From positions 372,001 through 436,000 of the forward strand of contig CAJXKC010000002.1 in assembly GCA_913055685.1 (NCBI GenBank): 64,000 bases of DNA, given 5' to 3'. A program made the translations under genes and the position numbers. The stretch comes from an uncultured Flavobacteriales bacterium (GTDB lineage: Bacteria > Bacteroidota > Bacteroidia > Flavobacteriales > Schleiferiaceae). This document shows positions 43,669-50,718 of this stretch, piece after piece. The notes below the pieces were generated by a model. It did no database searches and was not told where the DNA came from. It saw only the letters and a list, made by a program, of their open reading frames with translations. The stretch's first letter is position 1; each line of letters starts with the position of its first letter.

Positions 43669-44252
43669 ACGAAGCATTAGTACATCTAAAGAGCATTATA
43701 GCTGAAAGGCGCACGGTTAAGCCAGATACTTTCAGTGGTGAATTGATTGATGATCATTTTATAAATCAAATTTTGGAACAGGCCAATTGGGCCCCAACGC
43801 ACGGTTATACTGAGCCATGGCGGTTTGTGGTTTATAAAGGGGAGGCCCTTAAGCGTTTAGGGAGATTTTTAGCCGATTACGATCAGCCAGATCCTGAGGC
43901 GGAAGGATTTAACCAAATTCGTTACGATCGTATTGCTAATCGCCCTGGTTTAGCTTCTCATGTAATCGCTATCGCGATGAAGCCCGGTACTAATCCTAAG
44001 ATTCCTGAAATTGAAGAGGTATCTGCCGTGGCCATGGCAGTACAAAACATGTGGTTGATGAGCCATGCTTTAGGATTAGCAGGCTATTGGAGTACTGGCA
44101 AGGTCGCTTTCTCCGATGAGCTAAGAGACTTTATGGCTTTAGATGATAGTCACCAAGCCTTGGGCCTATTTTACTTGGGTAAGCCAGGCAAAGAGAATCC
44201 AAAGGGTAGAAGGATTACCGATATCAGCACTAAGGTTCGCTGGGAGTCCTAA
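43665..44252 (+). CDS. Nitroreductase-family FMN protein
   Basis: Cytosolic flavoprotein of 195 residues in the nitroreductase superfamily, which reduces nitro compounds, quinones or other electron acceptors with NAD(P)H. Seen: IIAERRTVKPDTFSG with the FMN phosphate-binding Arg pair, QANWAPTHGYTEPWRFVV as the conserved W.P. .. PW segment, the VAMAVQNMWLMSHALGLAGYW helix (read loosely), and GLFYLGKP near the end. Length and order fit the YdjA-like group of single-domain enzymes. It overlaps aroK by 4 bases upstream and the tolC gene tail to tail by 4 bases. Confidence 0.92.
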   Translation: MNEALVHLKSIIAERRTVKPDTFSGELIDDHFINQILEQANWAPTHGYTEPWRFVVYKGEALKRLGRFLADYDQPDPEAEGFNQIRYDRIANRPGLASHVIAIAMKPGTNPKIPEIEEVSAVAMAVQNMWLMSHALGLAGYWSTGKVAFSDELRDFMALDDSHQALGLFYLGKPGKENPKGRRITDISTKVRWES

Positions 44253-45643
44253 TTAAGGACCCCAGCTGCCGCTGCAAGTTTAGCCTGAACCTGGTTTAAT
44301 TTACTCTCGGTAGCAATTTCCTTTAAGCGGCTATCGATGTATTTCAGCTCCCTAGAATTAACTAAGAATAAGGAACTTTCGCCATTGCGGAATTTGGTGT
44401 TTTCCGCCCGAAGAAGGCGACGATAATTATTAACCATTGCCCTTATTTCGGTAAGTTGGGCAGCGTTTAAACTGAGTTCATTCTCCAAGGCAGCTACCTT
44501 ATTGCGTATTTCTTGCGCCTTTAAATCACGGGATAGCTGACTCTCCTGAATTTTAACCTTTTGTTTTAAGACCTCACCACGTCCTTTACGCACAAAGAGC
44601 GGAAAGCTCGCCTTTAAACCCCAATTGTAATTATCGACCGAGTAATTGGCAAAGAAATCATTGGGTGCCGGCTGGTTTAGGAATTTATAATTAAGGGTAA
44701 TTTCTGGCTTAATTTGCTCTATCTGTAATCGTCGCTCTACATCCAGTCTCTCAATTTTAAGGTCGTAGACCGCCAAGGCAGGGTGGGAGCTAAACCAGTC
44801 CTCGGGTAAAATTAAATCGGAGGCAGCCATTTGATATACAGGGTAGGCGCGACCGCTAATTTCCAAGGGAATCTGTCCTTCTAGCCATAGGTAAGTGGCT
44901 AAAATGTTACGTTTATGGATAAAGTCGGCTCGACTCTTCTGTAAACTAACTTTTCGGTCTTGCACCTGTATAGCCGCTTCTAAAGTGTCGATAAATGGTT
45001 CATCACCAACTATTGCTGCTCGCTTTACCGCATTAAATCGAAATTGGGCAAGGCGCAGCGCTTCTTGATAAATCATTACTTCTTGGTAAGAAGCATACCA
45101 ATCCCAATAAGCATTTAAGGCATCTTCAAATAGTTGGTTAAGGGCTAGGTCGATTTCAAATTCTGCTGATTCTTCTAAAAGTCGCGCCTGTTTTAGCATC
45201 GCTCGTCGTTCATCAATGAACAGGCCCCTCCCTAGAGTCCAACTAATATCCGCGTACCAAAGACCACTAGCAGGCACGGTGTTCTGCCCGTTCAAAAAGA
45301 GACCTTCATTGAGTTCGTATCCGGCCTTAGCCTTAAAGCCAAGCCAGCCCGGGATTTCTAAACCGCTATTTTGTAACTGGTAATAGTTTTTCCCATCGAA
45401 ACGCTTGTTGTCCATTTCGGAGAAGAGCTTGGGGTCGAAATTACCACTAGCCTTTAGTCTTGCGGCGCGCGCTGCCTCACGTATTAGCCGAGCTTGAGTC
45501 GCTAAAGGATGATGGCGCTCGACTAAAACCATAAAGCTATCTACTGGCAAAGCCACGCTATCAAGGGATTCATCTGAATCTTGAGCGCTCATGTTCCATG
45601 CCAAAAGCGCGAGAAATATGAACAGACTATTTCTTCTTAGCAT
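44249..45643 (-). CDS. TolC-family outer-membrane efflux protein
   Basis: Outer-membrane channel component of 464 residues. ATG 45643 gives a signal peptide (RRNSLFIFLALLAWNMSAQ); a longer frame to 45727 would lie inside the hlyD gene and lacks a signal. The rest shows two repeats of long amphipathic helices (LVERHHPLATQARLIREAAR, RLDVERRLQIEQIKPEI) with short beta strands, as in TolC. The start overlaps the hlyD 3' end by 17 bases. As the last gene of the tetR-ABC-hlyD-tolC operon it completes a three-part export machine spanning both membranes. Confidence 0.88.
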   Translation of the reverse strand: MLRRNSLFIFLALLAWNMSAQDSDESLDSVALPVDSFMVLVERHHPLATQARLIREAARAARLKASGNFDPKLFSEMDNKRFDGKNYYQLQNSGLEIPGWLGFKAKAGYELNEGLFLNGQNTVPASGLWYADISWTLGRGLFIDERRAMLKQARLLEESAEFEIDLALNQLFEDALNAYWDWYASYQEVMIYQEALRLAQFRFNAVKRAAIVGDEPFIDTLEAAIQVQDRKVSLQKSRADFIHKRNILATYLWLEGQIPLEISGRAYPVYQMAASDLILPEDWFSSHPALAVYDLKIERLDVERRLQIEQIKPEITLNYKFLNQPAPNDFFANYSVDNYNWGLKASFPLFVRKGRGEVLKQKVKIQESQLSRDLKAQEIRNKVAALENELSLNAAQLTEIRAMVNNYRRLLRAENTKFRNGESSLFLVNSRELKYIDSRLKEIATESKLNQVQAKLAAAAGVLN

Positions 45644-46988
45644 CGCTTTCTGGGGCTTTTTCGGGCTGGTAAAAATCAGCCGGGAATCCATTAATTTGTC
45701 GCCAAATCTCGTACCAGATCTGTACATCGTTTAAAAGAGCAAAGGTGCGGGCACCTGCGCCAACCCTTACCCCCTGAGGCCAGGGCTCTTGTTCTGGGTC
45801 AGGGGCCACTAACAAACGGTACATTCCATTATCGGAGGTGAAGTTATCAATGGCCACAATTCTGCCTCCAAAGGTTCCCACCGATACTCCGGGCCAACCA
45901 CTAAAGAAGAAGGCAGGCCAACCATCGAATTGGATACGCACCTCTTCGCCTATATGCATTAAGGGGTAGTCGAGAGGTTTTACGAACATCTCGATTGCCA
46001 GATCATAATTAGCAGGCATAATGGTTAAAATACGCTCGCCTTCCTTTACTGTTTCTCCAATACCGGTTTTAACCGCTTTTGTAATGTATCCATCCTGGGG
46101 AGCGGTTAGGTAATAATTGCTGCGGCGGATGGAATAATTGCTAAACTGGTTCTCCAATTTGCTAACCTCAGCATCGGTACCGTACATGCTCGATAAGGTG
46201 GCAAATCGCTCACTGCGGGCTTTAGAAATCTTAGAATCGTACTCGGCCTCTAAGGCATTGAGGTTTACCTTAGCATTAATTAACTCATTGCGACTGGCCA
46301 GTAGTTTAGACTCTTGAGAGACTCTTTTGGAAATAGTTTCTTGCAGTTTCTGACGTCTTTTTTCTAGGTCAGTTCGAGAATACAACCCTTGGGCAAAGAG
46401 CGTGTCCATCCGCTTCATCTGCGCTATAGCGATGTTTTCATTAGTCTGGGCCGCTACTAAGTCAATGGAATCTGCTGTAACTTTTAAACGACTGATTTTA
46501 ATCTTATTAAAGGCCTGTTCGAGCTTTAAACGCTTGTTTTCTACCAGCGCATTGATCTGCGTTTCAAGAGCATTAGCCTTCTCTTGATAATTACTACGCG
46601 AAGAGGTCTTTGCCTTTATCTGTGCATCGGTTCGGTCCAGTAACTGCGGGTCGAAATAATCGTTTTTGGTTTCCGAGATATACAGAATTGTATCTCCCTT
46701 TTTCACAAAATCACCTTCCTGCACAAACCATTCCTCGATTCTACCACCGATAACCGATTGCAGGGTTTGAGGTCTTTTATCGGGTTGAAGACTAGTTACA
46801 TAGCCTTTAGTCATAACGTTCTGAGTCCAAGGCAGAAACAAAGCCCCTAAAATGGCTACTAGAAATGCGATGAATAGATTTCGACGGCCTTTGTTAAAGC
46901 GTTGTTCGTCTAGAAAAACACGTAAACTTGAATATTTGCGCCGATCTACCTTCGACTCGATTGAATTTTCAGGAGATATATTTAACAT
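45627..46988 (-). CDS. HlyD-type membrane fusion protein
   Basis: Periplasmic adaptor of 453 residues linking the inner-membrane ABC protein to TolC. Order: cytoplasmic N terminus, one membrane helix (NLFIAFLVAILGALFLPW, residues ~37-54), a biotinyl-lipoyl-like first half (GGRIEEWFVQEGDFVKKGDTI), a long coiled-coil hairpin (residues ~110-290), the second lipoyl half (APQDGYITKAVKTGIGETVK) and a C-terminal beta domain. The tail is Lys-rich (ESDAKKK). Start overlaps the ABC gene by 7 bases. Type I secretion or multidrug export are both possible. Confidence 0.92.
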   Translation of the reverse strand: MLNISPENSIESKVDRRKYSSLRVFLDEQRFNKGRRNLFIAFLVAILGALFLPWTQNVMTKGYVTSLQPDKRPQTLQSVIGGRIEEWFVQEGDFVKKGDTILYISETKNDYFDPQLLDRTDAQIKAKTSSRSNYQEKANALETQINALVENKRLKLEQAFNKIKISRLKVTADSIDLVAAQTNENIAIAQMKRMDTLFAQGLYSRTDLEKRRQKLQETISKRVSQESKLLASRNELINAKVNLNALEAEYDSKISKARSERFATLSSMYGTDAEVSKLENQFSNYSIRRSNYYLTAPQDGYITKAVKTGIGETVKEGERILTIMPANYDLAIEMFVKPLDYPLMHIGEEVRIQFDGWPAFFFSGWPGVSVGTFGGRIVAIDNFTSDNGMYRLLVAPDPEQEPWPQGVRVGAGARTFALLNDVQIWYEIWRQINGFPADFYQPEKAPESDAKKK

Positions 46989-48688
46989 GGCAATTCGTCT
47001 TTTAAATCAGCGTAGGTTCCTTCTTTTACAACTCTTCCTTTGTCGAGCACAACAATACGATTCATGCGTTCCAAAGTCTTGCAATTATTGGTGGCAATAA
47101 TTACCGATTGCCCGCAGTCGAAGCAGAGGTAGTCTAACCACACTTGTCTGGTTTTATCGTCAACATCGAACCAATTATCCTCTAACAATAAGAGATTATG
47201 CTTACCCGCTAAGCTGCGTGCCATTAAAATTCGGTTGCGGGTTGAACTAGCCAGTCCCAGCCCAGAAGAAGGCAACTGGGTGAAAATCCCATTGGGTAAA
47301 TCCTCAACAAAGTCTTTTAGGCCTACTAGGTCAATAAGTTGCATCACTTCATCCTGACTAACCCCGTCGCGAGCTAGACTAATATTGTCTAGAATAGAGG
47401 CTTCAAATACTTCCTCTTGGCGTAAATTATCGCCAATAAGACTGCGTAAGGTTTCCAATCGCACATTGCGATGAGGAGTGGAATTGTAAAGGATAGAGCC
47501 TTCGTAGGAGTCAAATAAACCCGCTATTAATTGAAGGAGGGATGACTTACCCGAACTCATGGTACCGGTGATTCCAATTTTTTCACCGTGATTCACTTCC
47601 AGATTAATGTTGTGAAGGATTTTATGTCCCCATTGAGGAGATATTAAGTTGATGTTTTTCAGCTTAATATGTAGTTTGTCTTCACGTTTTAAATCAATCT
47701 GGGTTTCCTCATCATGATTCTCTAACTCAAGGTCGGTTACAGCCCCTAATTTTTCCAGGCCTGTGAGTACATCGTAAATGGTTTCGATGCTGTAAACCAG
47801 TTTCTCTACCGAGGAAATAATCTGTACAATTACAATTTCGGCGGCAACAAACTGACCAATATTCATCTGAGCGTCAAAGACCAATAAACCACCTAGTAAT
47901 AACAAGCCTCCGGCAATAAGAACCTTAAAAAAGATTAGGAAACCATATTGGCGCACCAGAATGGCGAAATGAGATCGGCGTGACCTGAGGTATTTACCAC
48001 TTAAGACATCCGTTTTCTGAAGCGGCAAATCGGTTTTACCGGCCATTTTAAAGGTAGAGAGGTTTCGGGCTAGTTCTTCCAGCCAGCTCACCACCTCATA
48101 CTTATGCTTACTTTCTTCAAGACTGGTTTCTAGTCCTCTCCGTGAAGTTGTTCGGAAATACAATGCCAATAATACCACCAAGAAAAGCCCAAAAGCAATA
48201 AAGAAGGGGTGATAAAGCGAAAGTAGGATAAGTCCAAATACAATCTGTAGGCTGGCTACAGAAAAGTCGAAAAGTAATTTGTACAAGCCCTTCTGGACGG
48301 TTAAAACGTCGAAGAAACGGTTAATTAACTCGGGCGGATAGTTATTGCGCAGTGCGCTTAATTTTAAACGTGGTATGCGGTAAGCAAATTCTACCGATGC
48401 ATTCACAAAGAGCCTTTGCTGGATGCGCTCCGCAACGCTTAATTGAAATATTTGAAAAATTCCGGCCAGCGTTAGGCCAATTAACACTACGATTACTAAA
48501 ACCACCCAAGAGGTAGAAGTACTGCCGCTTTGGATTAGGTTAATAATTGCCTGAATTCCCAAAGGAATAGATAGGGTAAGTAGCCCGTTAAATAGGGCGT
48601 AAATGTAAATATTGCCTATATCTTTTCGCTCGCTAGCAAGCAGTTGCCAGAAGCGCTTTAGAGGCATTTTAGGGTCACTAGCTGCCAT
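46982..48688 (-). CDS. ABC transporter, fused membrane and ATPase domains, degenerate ATPase motifs
   Basis: Inner-membrane exporter half of 568 residues. Residues ~20-300 form a six-helix type I exporter domain; there is no N-terminal C39 peptidase domain. The ATPase keeps Walker A (GTMSSGKS, Lys381) and a Q-loop Gln (NLRQEEVF), but the signature LSGGQ is LASST (residues 479-483), Walker B reads LLLLED with Glu503-Asp504 where DE is normal, and the H-loop His is Asn534. If it works as a homodimer, both ATP sites would be affected. It overlaps tetR upstream by 11 bases and hlyD downstream by 7. Substrate unknown. Confidence 0.9.
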   Translation of the reverse strand: MAASDPKMPLKRFWQLLASERKDIGNIYIYALFNGLLTLSIPLGIQAIINLIQSGSTSTSWVVLVIVVLIGLTLAGIFQIFQLSVAERIQQRLFVNASVEFAYRIPRLKLSALRNNYPPELINRFFDVLTVQKGLYKLLFDFSVASLQIVFGLILLSLYHPFFIAFGLFLVVLLALYFRTTSRRGLETSLEESKHKYEVVSWLEELARNLSTFKMAGKTDLPLQKTDVLSGKYLRSRRSHFAILVRQYGFLIFFKVLIAGGLLLLGGLLVFDAQMNIGQFVAAEIVIVQIISSVEKLVYSIETIYDVLTGLEKLGAVTDLELENHDEETQIDLKREDKLHIKLKNINLISPQWGHKILHNINLEVNHGEKIGITGTMSSGKSSLLQLIAGLFDSYEGSILYNSTPHRNVRLETLRSLIGDNLRQEEVFEASILDNISLARDGVSQDEVMQLIDLVGLKDFVEDLPNGIFTQLPSSGLGLASSTRNRILMARSLAGKHNLLLLEDNWFDVDDKTRQVWLDYLCFDCGQSVIIATNNCKTLERMNRIVVLDKGRVVKEGTYADLKDELPC

Positions 48689-49361
48689 AGTTCAGGGTGC
48701 TAAAGGTCATTGATTTAAAAAAGGCGATCACATCTTCGTCGCTGTGGGCGATATCGGTAATACCAGGTATATGTGCGCCAAAAAACTTTTGCAAGTGATT
48801 AGACTCTAAAAGGGTAGAGGCTAATGTTTTAGGGAAAGGATACTGGGGGTTTAAACCGCTAATAATTCCTTCTAATCGCTCCACAAGATTTTTATAAGAT
48901 TGAAAATAACCATTCTTATTCTCTGAGTCAATTTCCTTGGTTAAGAAGGCTTTTGAAGACTCTGAAATTACGATTTTTTGAAGCTTTTCTTCATTAATAT
49001 GACTAAAGTCTTGATCTTCTTCCACAGTTTCACAAATAGCACGAATGGAGTTTTCTAACTGTTGCTCGCAAGATTTAATATTAGCGGTGGCAAAGGCTAC
49101 TTTATACTCCAGCCAACCCCAATACCAAGAGGTAAGGTATAAGAGGAGCTTGTGCTTGTTTTCGAAGTAGCGGTAAACCGTACTTTCTGGCGAACCAATG
49201 GCAATACCAAGCTTCTTAAAGGTGAAAGACTCAAAGCCTAACTCTTCGATTAATAAAATACTGTGCTCTACTATTTTTTTACCTAAGTCACTGGAATCCG
49301 GGTCCTTAACATATAGTTGCTCCGGAATTTGTATCCTTAGATTTCCCAATAATCGCTGCAT
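48678..49361 (-). CDS. TetR/AcrR-family regulator of the export operon
   Basis: DNA-binding repressor-type protein of 227 residues. The helix-turn-helix near residues 45-70 reads FTFKKLGIAIGSPESTVYRYF, followed by ENKHKLLLYL as in TetR proteins; the C-terminal ligand domain is unlike any I can name. It is the first gene of the minus-strand tetR-ABC-hlyD-tolC operon and overlaps the ABC start by 11 bases. A palindrome lies between its -33 and -7 promoter boxes, so it probably represses itself and the pump until a ligand binds. Confidence 0.9.
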   Translation of the reverse strand: MQRLLGNLRIQIPEQLYVKDPDSSDLGKKIVEHSILLIEELGFESFTFKKLGIAIGSPESTVYRYFENKHKLLLYLTSWYWGWLEYKVAFATANIKSCEQQLENSIRAICETVEEDQDFSHINEEKLQKIVISESSKAFLTKEIDSENKNGYFQSYKNLVERLEGIISGLNPQYPFPKTLASTLLESNHLQKFFGAHIPGITDIAHSDEDVIAFFKSMTFSTLNYGS

Positions 49362-49479: not shown

Positions 49480-50718
49480 ATGGATCTCTTTACCATCATA
49501 GCCCTACTAAGTACTATGGCGGCTATTTTCGCCTACCTCAATACCCGATATTTAAAATTACCATTTACCATAGGTTTGATGGTGCTGGCCCTGGTCTTTA
49601 CCATTATTGTGATTGCTCTGGGTGCAATTTTCCCCGTGGTGCTTGCAGATGCCAAGCTAATCGTTAATACGCTCGACTTTAAAGCGCTTTTACTGGATGT
49701 GATGCTCAGTTTTTTACTTTTTGCCGGCGCTTTGCATACCAAATTGGATGCCCTTTCGAAAAACCGGGGACCAATTTTAATGCTCGCCACCCTCGGGGTC
49801 TTGCTTTCTACCGTGCTAATTGCTTCTTTTCTGTATGCTTTAATGGCCTGGGTGGCTTATCCCATTGACTTTATCTATTGTTTGCTTTTTGGGGCTTTAA
49901 TTTCTCCCACCGATCCCATTGCGGTTCTAAGCATCATGAAGGAAGTCGGGGCGCCCAAGAATCTAAATGTTAAGATAGTTGGGGAGTCGCTATTTAATGA
50001 CGGTGTAGGGGTAGTAGTCTTTTTAGTATTACTGTCGATAGCCGCTCAGGGAATGGAAAATTTTAGTTTGGGTGAGGTTGGAATACTATTTTTAGAGGAA
50101 GTAGGAGGTGGACTGGCTTTGGGCTTATTGGGTGGTTATGTAGCCTTTCGGCTGATGCGAAAGATCGATCATTACGAAACCGAGGTAATATTAACCTTAG
50201 CCTTGGTAATGGGTTTGTATACTTTGGCTTCACATCTACATTTTAGTGGTCCGCTCGCAGTGGTGGTAGCCGGATTGTTTATCGGTAATAAGTCACCAGA
50301 GGCTGCTTGGTCTATAAGTGCTCAGAATTACATCGATAAGTTTTGGGAAATGTTGGACGTTTTCCTAAATGCTATACTCTTTGTTCTCATTGGATTAGAG
50401 CTCCTCATTGTTGAGCTAAATGCCTTTCATCTAACCCTTGGTTTAGCAATGATACCCTTAATGCTCTTAGCTAGATACATTTCGGTTTTAGGTCCGGTTG
50501 AAATCTACAAGCGGCGACTCGAGTTTGCTCCTAAAACGGCCTTTTTACTTACTTGGGGTGGGATTAGAGGTGGCATTTCTATTGCATTAGCCTTAAGCCT
50601 TACGGCTGATATGCACCGCGACCTATTCCTTGCCATGGCTTACGTCTTGGTGGTTTTCTCTATTTTAGTACAAGGTTTAAGCTTGTCTAAGGTCATGAAA
50701 AAGGTGCTTAATAAATAA
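49480..50718 (+). CDS. Sodium/proton antiporter, CPA1 (NhaP-like) family
   Basis: Inner-membrane exchanger of 412 residues with about 12 helices. The family's ion-binding features are visible: SPTDPIAVLSIMKE in the unwound helix 4-5 region and the Asn-Asp pair in GESLFNDGVGVV. RGGISIALALSL near residue 365 matches the conserved late helix. It exports Na+ (or K+) in exchange for protons for pH and salt balance, fitting a marine lifestyle. It has no long C-terminal regulatory domain. It is divergent from the tetR operon; no clear promoter box is seen. The 136-residue gene after it may be co-transcribed (20-base gap). Confidence 0.93.
   Translation: MDLFTIIALLSTMAAIFAYLNTRYLKLPFTIGLMVLALVFTIIVIALGAIFPVVLADAKLIVNTLDFKALLLDVMLSFLLFAGALHTKLDALSKNRGPILMLATLGVLLSTVLIASFLYALMAWVAYPIDFIYCLLFGALISPTDPIAVLSIMKEVGAPKNLNVKIVGESLFNDGVGVVVFLVLLSIAAQGMENFSLGEVGILFLEEVGGGLALGLLGGYVAFRLMRKIDHYETEVILTLALVMGLYTLASHLHFSGPLAVVVAGLFIGNKSPEAAWSISAQNYIDKFWEMLDVFLNAILFVLIGLELLIVELNAFHLTLGLAMIPLMLLARYISVLGPVEIYKRRLEFAPKTAFLLTWGGIRGGISIALALSLTADMHRDLFLAMAYVLVVFSILVQGLSLSKVMKKVLNK

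Follow-up and report, generated by a model that had tools for sequence, protein, structure and literature searches.

Sequence evidence for stepwise loss of the ATPase in a family of ABC exporter-fold proteins encoded with HlyD and TolC

How is an export pump powered when the only ATPase encoded with it retains a single one of its motifs? The question is raised by a gene in a 64,000-nucleotide stretch of DNA from an uncultured Flavobacteriales bacterium (Schleiferiaceae; assembly GCA_913055685.1, contig CAJXKC010000002.1, positions 372,001 to 436,000), here called the window, where an ATP-binding cassette (ABC) exporter-fold protein is encoded together with an HlyD-family adaptor and a TolC-family channel. 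Its relatives form a widespread bacterial family of export pumps in which the ATPase has degenerated and, in one branch, disappeared altogether, although the membrane part is kept together with HlyD and TolC; this suggests a pump running on energy other than ATP. Aligned with canonical controls, the nucleotide-binding domain (NBD) of the window protein keeps Walker A and carries the following residues at the motif positions:

46982..48688, minus strand: ABC exporter-fold gene, 568 aa, degenerate NBD (open reading frame (ORF) list, Pfam, AlphaFold2 model, Foldseek)
47639..47641, minus strand: A-loop position, Ser350 in place of an aromatic residue
47543..47566, minus strand: Walker A, GTMSSGKS (residues 375-382), Lys381 kept, the sole retained motif
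47417..47422, minus strand: Q-loop column, Arg423 in place of the canonical Gln, with a displaced Gln424
47240..47254, minus strand: signature position, LASST (479-483) in place of LSGGQ
47177..47194, minus strand: Walker B, LLLLED (499-504), Glu503-Asp504 in place of Asp-Glu
47087..47089, minus strand: H-loop position, Asn534 in place of His

The controls were 30 orthologues of the MsbA-like exporter of the same genome (L265), aligned over the NBD and checked at eight positions. The columns for the Walker A Lys, the signature S-G-G-Q, the Walker B D-E, the H-loop His, the Q-loop Gln and the A-loop Tyr were each canonical in 30/30, as were all eight positions taken together, and the motif register is therefore sound. 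A shifted alignment is thereby ruled out except at the Q-loop, which an earlier note on this DNA had counted as kept: the column that holds Gln in 30/30 controls falls on Arg423, with Gln424 displaced by one residue. Its readings of Lys381, LASST, Glu503-Asp504 and Asn534 all hold in this register, and to these we add the loss of the A-loop aromatic (Ser350, where Tyr stands in 30/30 controls). Of what characterizes a functional ABC ATPase, the window protein has Walker A alone. The operon contains a single ABC gene, with no partner half-transporter bearing complementary canonical residues, and the rest of the genome has no close paralogue, its most similar exporters being 21-24% identical, though a partner of unrelated sequence is conceivable. 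The sequence argues against ATP hydrolysis powering export in this system.

Homologues were collected from 59 genomes (the window's own and its relatives; 38 matched at E <= 1e-60, one locus each) and from a genome-collection scan, of which the best 80 of 133 loci were kept and one pattern of which sits on Walker B itself; the 110 loci from both searches reduced to 61 sequences after dereplication at 80% identity, forming profile A1. A profile search of a phylum sample matched 75 of 296 genomes at E <= 1e-100, and a wider set comprised 158 dereplicated sequences, 119 with an NBD and 39 without. None of the 119 NBD-bearing homologues is canonical at all eight motif positions, as against 30/30 controls, although every search for them started from the window protein or from profiles derived from it, so that fully canonical or more distant relatives would escape listing. 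An outer group of 11 sequences (L146-L156) has the Walker B Asp-Glu in 10, the H-loop His in eight, the Walker A Lys in all 11, and Gln at the Q-loop column in none. Among the 106 sequences of the crown group, to which the window protein belongs, Walker B Asp-Glu occurs in two, the H-loop His in two and Gln at the Q column in seven. Two plasmid sequences from Sphingomonadales (L221 and L224) have both lost Walker A, and their NBD is unrecognised by Pfam. As judged from these alignments, motif loss is family-wide and graded, ending in full loss of the NBD in one clade, and the deep-branching members are near-canonical. To the earlier note's question of whether the substitutions are fixed or homologues carry canonical motifs, the answer is that the changes are common to the family: near-canonical motifs appear only in the deep-branching outer lineages, and fully canonical ones never. 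Family-wide substitution together with purifying selection also rules out the decay of a single gene, in agreement with that note.

The end of this series is a nested clade with only a transmembrane domain (TMD). Among the 75 matching genomes of the phylum sample, four had matches covering the membrane domain alone, and these (L141-L144) are clean genes of 333-339 aa, each with HlyD and TolC genes following it. We searched two orders with an alignment of these four (A2), taking an open frame of 333-394 aa as TMD-only: such genes are present in 73 of 250 genomes of the first order (75 places) and in at least 33 of 241 of the second (at least 34 places), or at least 106 of 491 genomes and four families (f17, f23, f24 and f79) when the orders are combined. 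All examined loci terminate 1-9 residues past the TMD, giving a protein of ~335 residues. HlyD starts -34 to +119 nt from the TMD-only stop at every examined locus except L187, downstream of which no HlyD gene was called, and TolC follows HlyD wherever the flank of the locus is long enough. For most of these genes HlyD begins at -7 nt relative to the stop, which rules out an NBD hidden behind a frameshift.

On a TMD tree of 102 rows, with Shimodaira-Hasegawa-like approximate likelihood-ratio test (SH-aLRT) support and rooted on two Sphingomonadales sequences on long branches, the TMD-only proteins form one clade (19 rows, SH-aLRT 99), which adjoins full-length Runella and Rhabdobacter proteins with a degenerate NBD. 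Sequence comparison indicates that these genes are under strong purifying selection, with a median ratio of nonsynonymous to synonymous divergence (dN/dS) of 0.033 and a maximum of 0.149 over 21 usable pairs, synonymous sites being nearly saturated and 49 of 70 pairs having been dropped for lack of a finite dS. Of the 250 genomes of the first order, 73 have a TMD-only member and 41 a full-length one, and the two never occur together (P ~1.5e-7, ignoring shared ancestry). A TetR-family gene, like the window's own by sequence reading, lies divergently upstream in 4 of 21 TMD-only loci. Three genomes (G436, G555 and G709) carry two TMD-only copies.

In the window, the ABC gene is second in an overlapping TetR, ABC, HlyD, TolC set, all on the minus strand; ORFs and Pfam matches confirm the complete operon described by the earlier note, the other members of which are:

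48678..49361, minus strand: TetR-family regulator, gene 1 of the set (ORF list, Pfam TetR_N)
45627..46988, minus strand: HlyD-family periplasmic adaptor (ORF list, Pfam HlyD_3, NCBIfam)
44249..45727, minus strand: TolC-family outer-membrane factor, OEP (ORF list, Pfam OEP)

By its sequence, the TolC-family gene may truly start at the Met codon at 45643, ahead of a signal-peptide-like stretch. With an inner-membrane ABC protein encoded beside an HlyD adaptor and a TolC-family channel, the set has the composition of a tripartite or type I system, and not that of a resistance-nodulation-division (RND) or major facilitator superfamily (MFS) tripartite pump, its inner-membrane protein matching Pfam ABC_membrane and having an ABC fold. 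The protein also matches ABC_tran, and its top NCBIfam matches are to models for exporters of bacteriocins and of type I secretion, far under their cut-offs.

The AlphaFold2 model of the window protein (43 sequences; mean predicted local distance difference test score, pLDDT, 84.8) is that of an ordinary ABC exporter half, with the type IV exporter fold: TM1-TM6, coupling helices at 110-113 and 210-216, and a C-terminal NBD fold. Foldseek found TM287/288, TmrAB and HlyB (8dck among the top) to be the closest structures, with a TM-score of 0.87 to 6quz_A, and VIA-align placed MsbA closest (7ph3_A; Z 30.0, root-mean-square deviation 2.8, 560 aligned). Three elements of the membrane domain matter for what follows:

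47729..48664, minus strand: membrane domain with elbow helix and TM1-TM6 (residues 9-320), where the family is conserved (AlphaFold2 secondary structure, conservation)
48041..48061, minus strand: coupling helix 2, residues 210-216, relaxed in NBD-less homologues (AlphaFold2 model, entropy comparison)
47837..47839, minus strand: Glu284, TM6 (column conservation)

Over the 158 dereplicated homologues, gaps aside, Pro42, Asn123, Lys133, Ser193, Lys196, His240, Leu263, Gly266, Gly278, Ala282 and Glu284 are invariant, and Arg124, Asp127, His160, Tyr197, Arg237, Asp306 and Lys313 are present in at least 97%. By helix order in the model, the conserved residues sit on the cytoplasmic extensions and at the TMD's periplasmic end. 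Such invariance suggests a coupling network or a fixed path for the substrate, and the strictly conserved polar residues of the membrane domain suggest that the system exports a single conserved substrate and is not a broad drug pump.

The two domains have also diverged at different rates. The 29 homologues of the relatives set share with the window protein a mean identity of 0.652 over the TMD and 0.437 over the NBD, and the NBD is the less similar domain in 29/29, whereas a canonical exporter over the same set has means of 0.587 (TMD) and 0.696 (NBD), with the NBD lower in 2/29. Column entropy over 61 sequences is 1.23 bits in the TMD and 2.14 in the NBD. Within the window genus, where 15 pairs were compared, dN/dS of the TMD is 0.024-0.030 (four pairs with finite dS, the remainder saturated).

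If a separate ATPase drove the TMD-only proteins, the surface on which an NBD docks might be expected to stay conserved, and we compared column entropy between 39 TMD-only proteins and 18 NBD-bearing sisters over 294 segments of 20 residues. Segment 205-224, which spans coupling helix 2, is more variable in the TMD-only proteins by +0.83 bits (rank 2 of 294) and ranks 1, 1 and 2 against three other reference sets; in comparisons among NBD-bearing groups it ranks 33, 112 and 16 of 294. The stretch 200-230 has 31 residues in 106 of 106 NBD-bearing sequences; among the 39 TMD-only proteins it has 32 in 30 of them, 31 in seven, 34 in one and 43 in one.

Several known systems resemble parts of this family. 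The fold, domain order and HlyD-TolC operon are those of type I secretion systems (HlyB, LssB and PrtD models) and NHLM bacteriocin exporters; unlike these, the family has lost its ATPase motifs, has one clade without an NBD and has no cargo gene identified, and the best NCBIfam score of 191.8 bits compares with a curated cut-off of 853.3. Substitutions in the signature, Walker B and H-loop recall the heterodimers TM287/288, TmrAB, TAP and MRP1, which have one degenerate site but keep a canonical one, whereas here a single gene lacks both a partner gene and any canonical site. L265, the MsbA-like exporter of this genome, shares fold class and length range, but its orthologues are canonical at the eight positions in 30/30, and its NBD is more conserved than its TMD in 27/29. 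For function without an NBD, the previous basis has been laboratory truncations of LmrA and MsbA. The membrane domain of LmrA (LmrA-MD) is reported, in proteoliposomes, to mediate ethidium-proton symport as well as H+-Na+-Cl- symport, a TM6 glutamate, E314, being required for the pH-gradient-driven part (PMC2704374), and that of MsbA (MsbA-MD) to support pH-gradient-driven efflux (PMC4979069). The TMD-only proteins are like these two in being ABC exporter membrane domains without an NBD, of which those two are reported to be proton-coupled (PMC2704374, PMC4979069), but the latter are truncations of canonical exporters and have no HlyD or TolC, whereas the loss described here is natural, confined to one clade and set within a tripartite operon. 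Searches of open-licence PMC papers turned up no account of this family, nor of any ABC exporter that lacks its NBD in nature.

Both the fold and the type of operon are already known; what we propose, by analogy, is a changed energy source. The window protein would be the inner-membrane component of a tripartite exporter under TetR control, completed by the HlyD adaptor and TolC channel. Its NBD would be a pseudo-ATPase, with fold and Walker A remaining and A-loop, Q-loop, signature, Walker B and H-loop altered; export would be independent of ATP hydrolysis at this NBD, and the retained domain, perhaps still nucleotide-binding, would act as a dispensable structural or regulatory lid. A proton or sodium gradient would power alternating access of the membrane domain, as in the engineered LmrA-MD and MsbA-MD. 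That this ABC-fold component of an HlyD-TolC export system is no longer run by its own ATP hydrolysis, and is probably driven by an ion gradient, we put at an even chance; the fuller account, of a natural ATPase-free tripartite exporter whose membrane domain turned into an ion-driven secondary transporter through a pseudo-ATPase stage and then NBD loss, with HlyD and TolC kept, we hold more tentatively, at slightly under even.

Several observations weigh against an ion-driven, ATP-free pump. The ion drive is argued by analogy, from two canonical exporters that were truncated by engineering; Glu284 lies, by model helix order, near the periplasmic end of TM6, and a role for it in proton coupling is speculation. 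Coupling helix 1 shows no relaxation in the TMD-only proteins, and one of the three comparisons among NBD-bearing groups was itself topped by a segment over coupling helix 2 (202-221), with a negative difference. Of the 106 crown members, 103 retain the Walker A Lys, and dN/dS of the window-genus NBD is 0.048-0.074 (three pairs with finite dS, the rest saturated), which amounts to purifying selection, looser than on the TMD but not free. Because the lysine is kept and the domain is under selection, the NBD must do something, possibly weak hydrolysis. These two points, and an NBD fold that is intact in the model, favor the idea that the window protein hydrolyzes ATP slowly through its substituted residues (Glu503 or Asp504, for example, as catalytic carboxylate) and that the NBD-less branch alone is ATP-free; a review of degenerate sites likewise covers a Walker B Glu-to-Asp exchange and H-loop mutants that retain transport (PMC7756269). 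We nevertheless consider slow hydrolysis unlikely: signature, Q-loop, H-loop, A-loop and Walker B order are altered in one protein that has no partner gene, the transporters in that review pair a degenerate site with a canonical one (PMC7756269), and the NBD-less branch shows hydrolysis to be dispensable for retention of the operon. The earlier note had left slow hydrolysis, a partner ATPase and a different drive side by side; the last is now best supported, because a whole clade without an NBD keeps the operon.

The partner ATPase has fared worst. All 11 TMD-only genomes searched contain many other NBDs, one of which could dock in trans on a coupling helix 1 that is still conserved; however, coupling helix 2 has lost both its conservation and its fixed length in these proteins, the window gene has no close unlinked paralogue, and no split-off or family-like stand-alone NBD was found in the 11 genomes, where the best NBD matches all lie within complete exporter frames and NBDs in short frames (~410 aa or less) reach at most 113 bits among those listed. 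Nor does a stand-alone NBD gene recur beside the operon across 21 loci. Since coupling helix 2 is relaxed and no such NBD was found in the 11 genomes, the sequences disfavor an ATPase in trans, which we regard as very improbable. The membrane domain might instead be a gated channel or facilitator, extended by HlyD and TolC, through which substrate moves down its own gradient: the TMD-only branch has no energy domain, and CFTR is an ABC protein that works as a channel. This seems rather unlikely, as efflux across two membranes normally requires energy and the many strictly conserved polar residues look like a coupling or binding network, not a simple pore. Finally, the ABC-like protein might transport nothing and anchor the HlyD-TolC pair, or pass it to an RND or MFS pump. 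HlyD and TolC are indeed kept beside the TMD-only gene, and some TMD-only operons have RND-like genes nearby (cluster C7: L143, L144, L254 and L259; RND by reading of the L143 gene), but such neighbors occur in few loci and conservation covers both the cytoplasmic extensions and the periplasmic TMD end (by model helix order) rather than one surface, and a scaffold is, to us, quite improbable.

If the ion-driven reading is true, evolution has crossed over from primary (ABC) to secondary transport, and annotating these genes as ATP-driven pumps is wrong across much of the phylum. Within the family, one operon occurs naturally in near-canonical, pseudo-ATPase and NBD-less forms that can be compared in their own hosts, which opens to direct test whether ABC exporter membrane domains work without ATP.

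Beyond the operon, the neighbors of 21 TMD-only loci form minor recurring clusters, with small unassigned proteins in four and in three of them, and gave no clue to the substrate. A small ORF of L143 (7253-7603) encodes a conserved protein also present in L144, L251 and L264, and two small proteins of L143 and L144 had no Pfam match over cut-offs. An RND-like transporter gene, by ORF reading, lies beside the TMD-only operon at L143:8893-13224.

Among full-length members, the crown sequences L158, L160 and L225 have Walker A destroyed or altered as well, as further steps of decay, and one genome (G437) carries three full-length copies of the family gene. Many full-length relatives (L222, L227, L228, L230-L233, L146, L147 and L149-L154) have an N-terminal extension of ~130-250 aa, in which no Pfam domain was found in the five sampled. 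At L145:1736-3509 the family gene is broken into overlapping ORFs of 135 and 489 aa, perhaps by a frameshift or assembly error. A Riemerella record labelled as a plasmid (L223, NZ_CP081938.1) has the operon among housekeeping genes, fabG, rsmI and murB included, and may be a piece of chromosome. On the Sphingobium plasmid (L224:1362-3914), the ABC, HlyD and TolC genes come after a DUF2309 gene, which we take to be DabA-like. A Blastomonas 'hlyB' is described as resembling a Novosphingobium protein (PMC9505733); the latter may or may not be the family member at L221. In the window, the TetR gene adjoins a divergent gene at 49480-50718 for a probable Na+/H+ antiporter (by sequence reading), an arrangement also kept in L002-L006, L031-L033 and L035.

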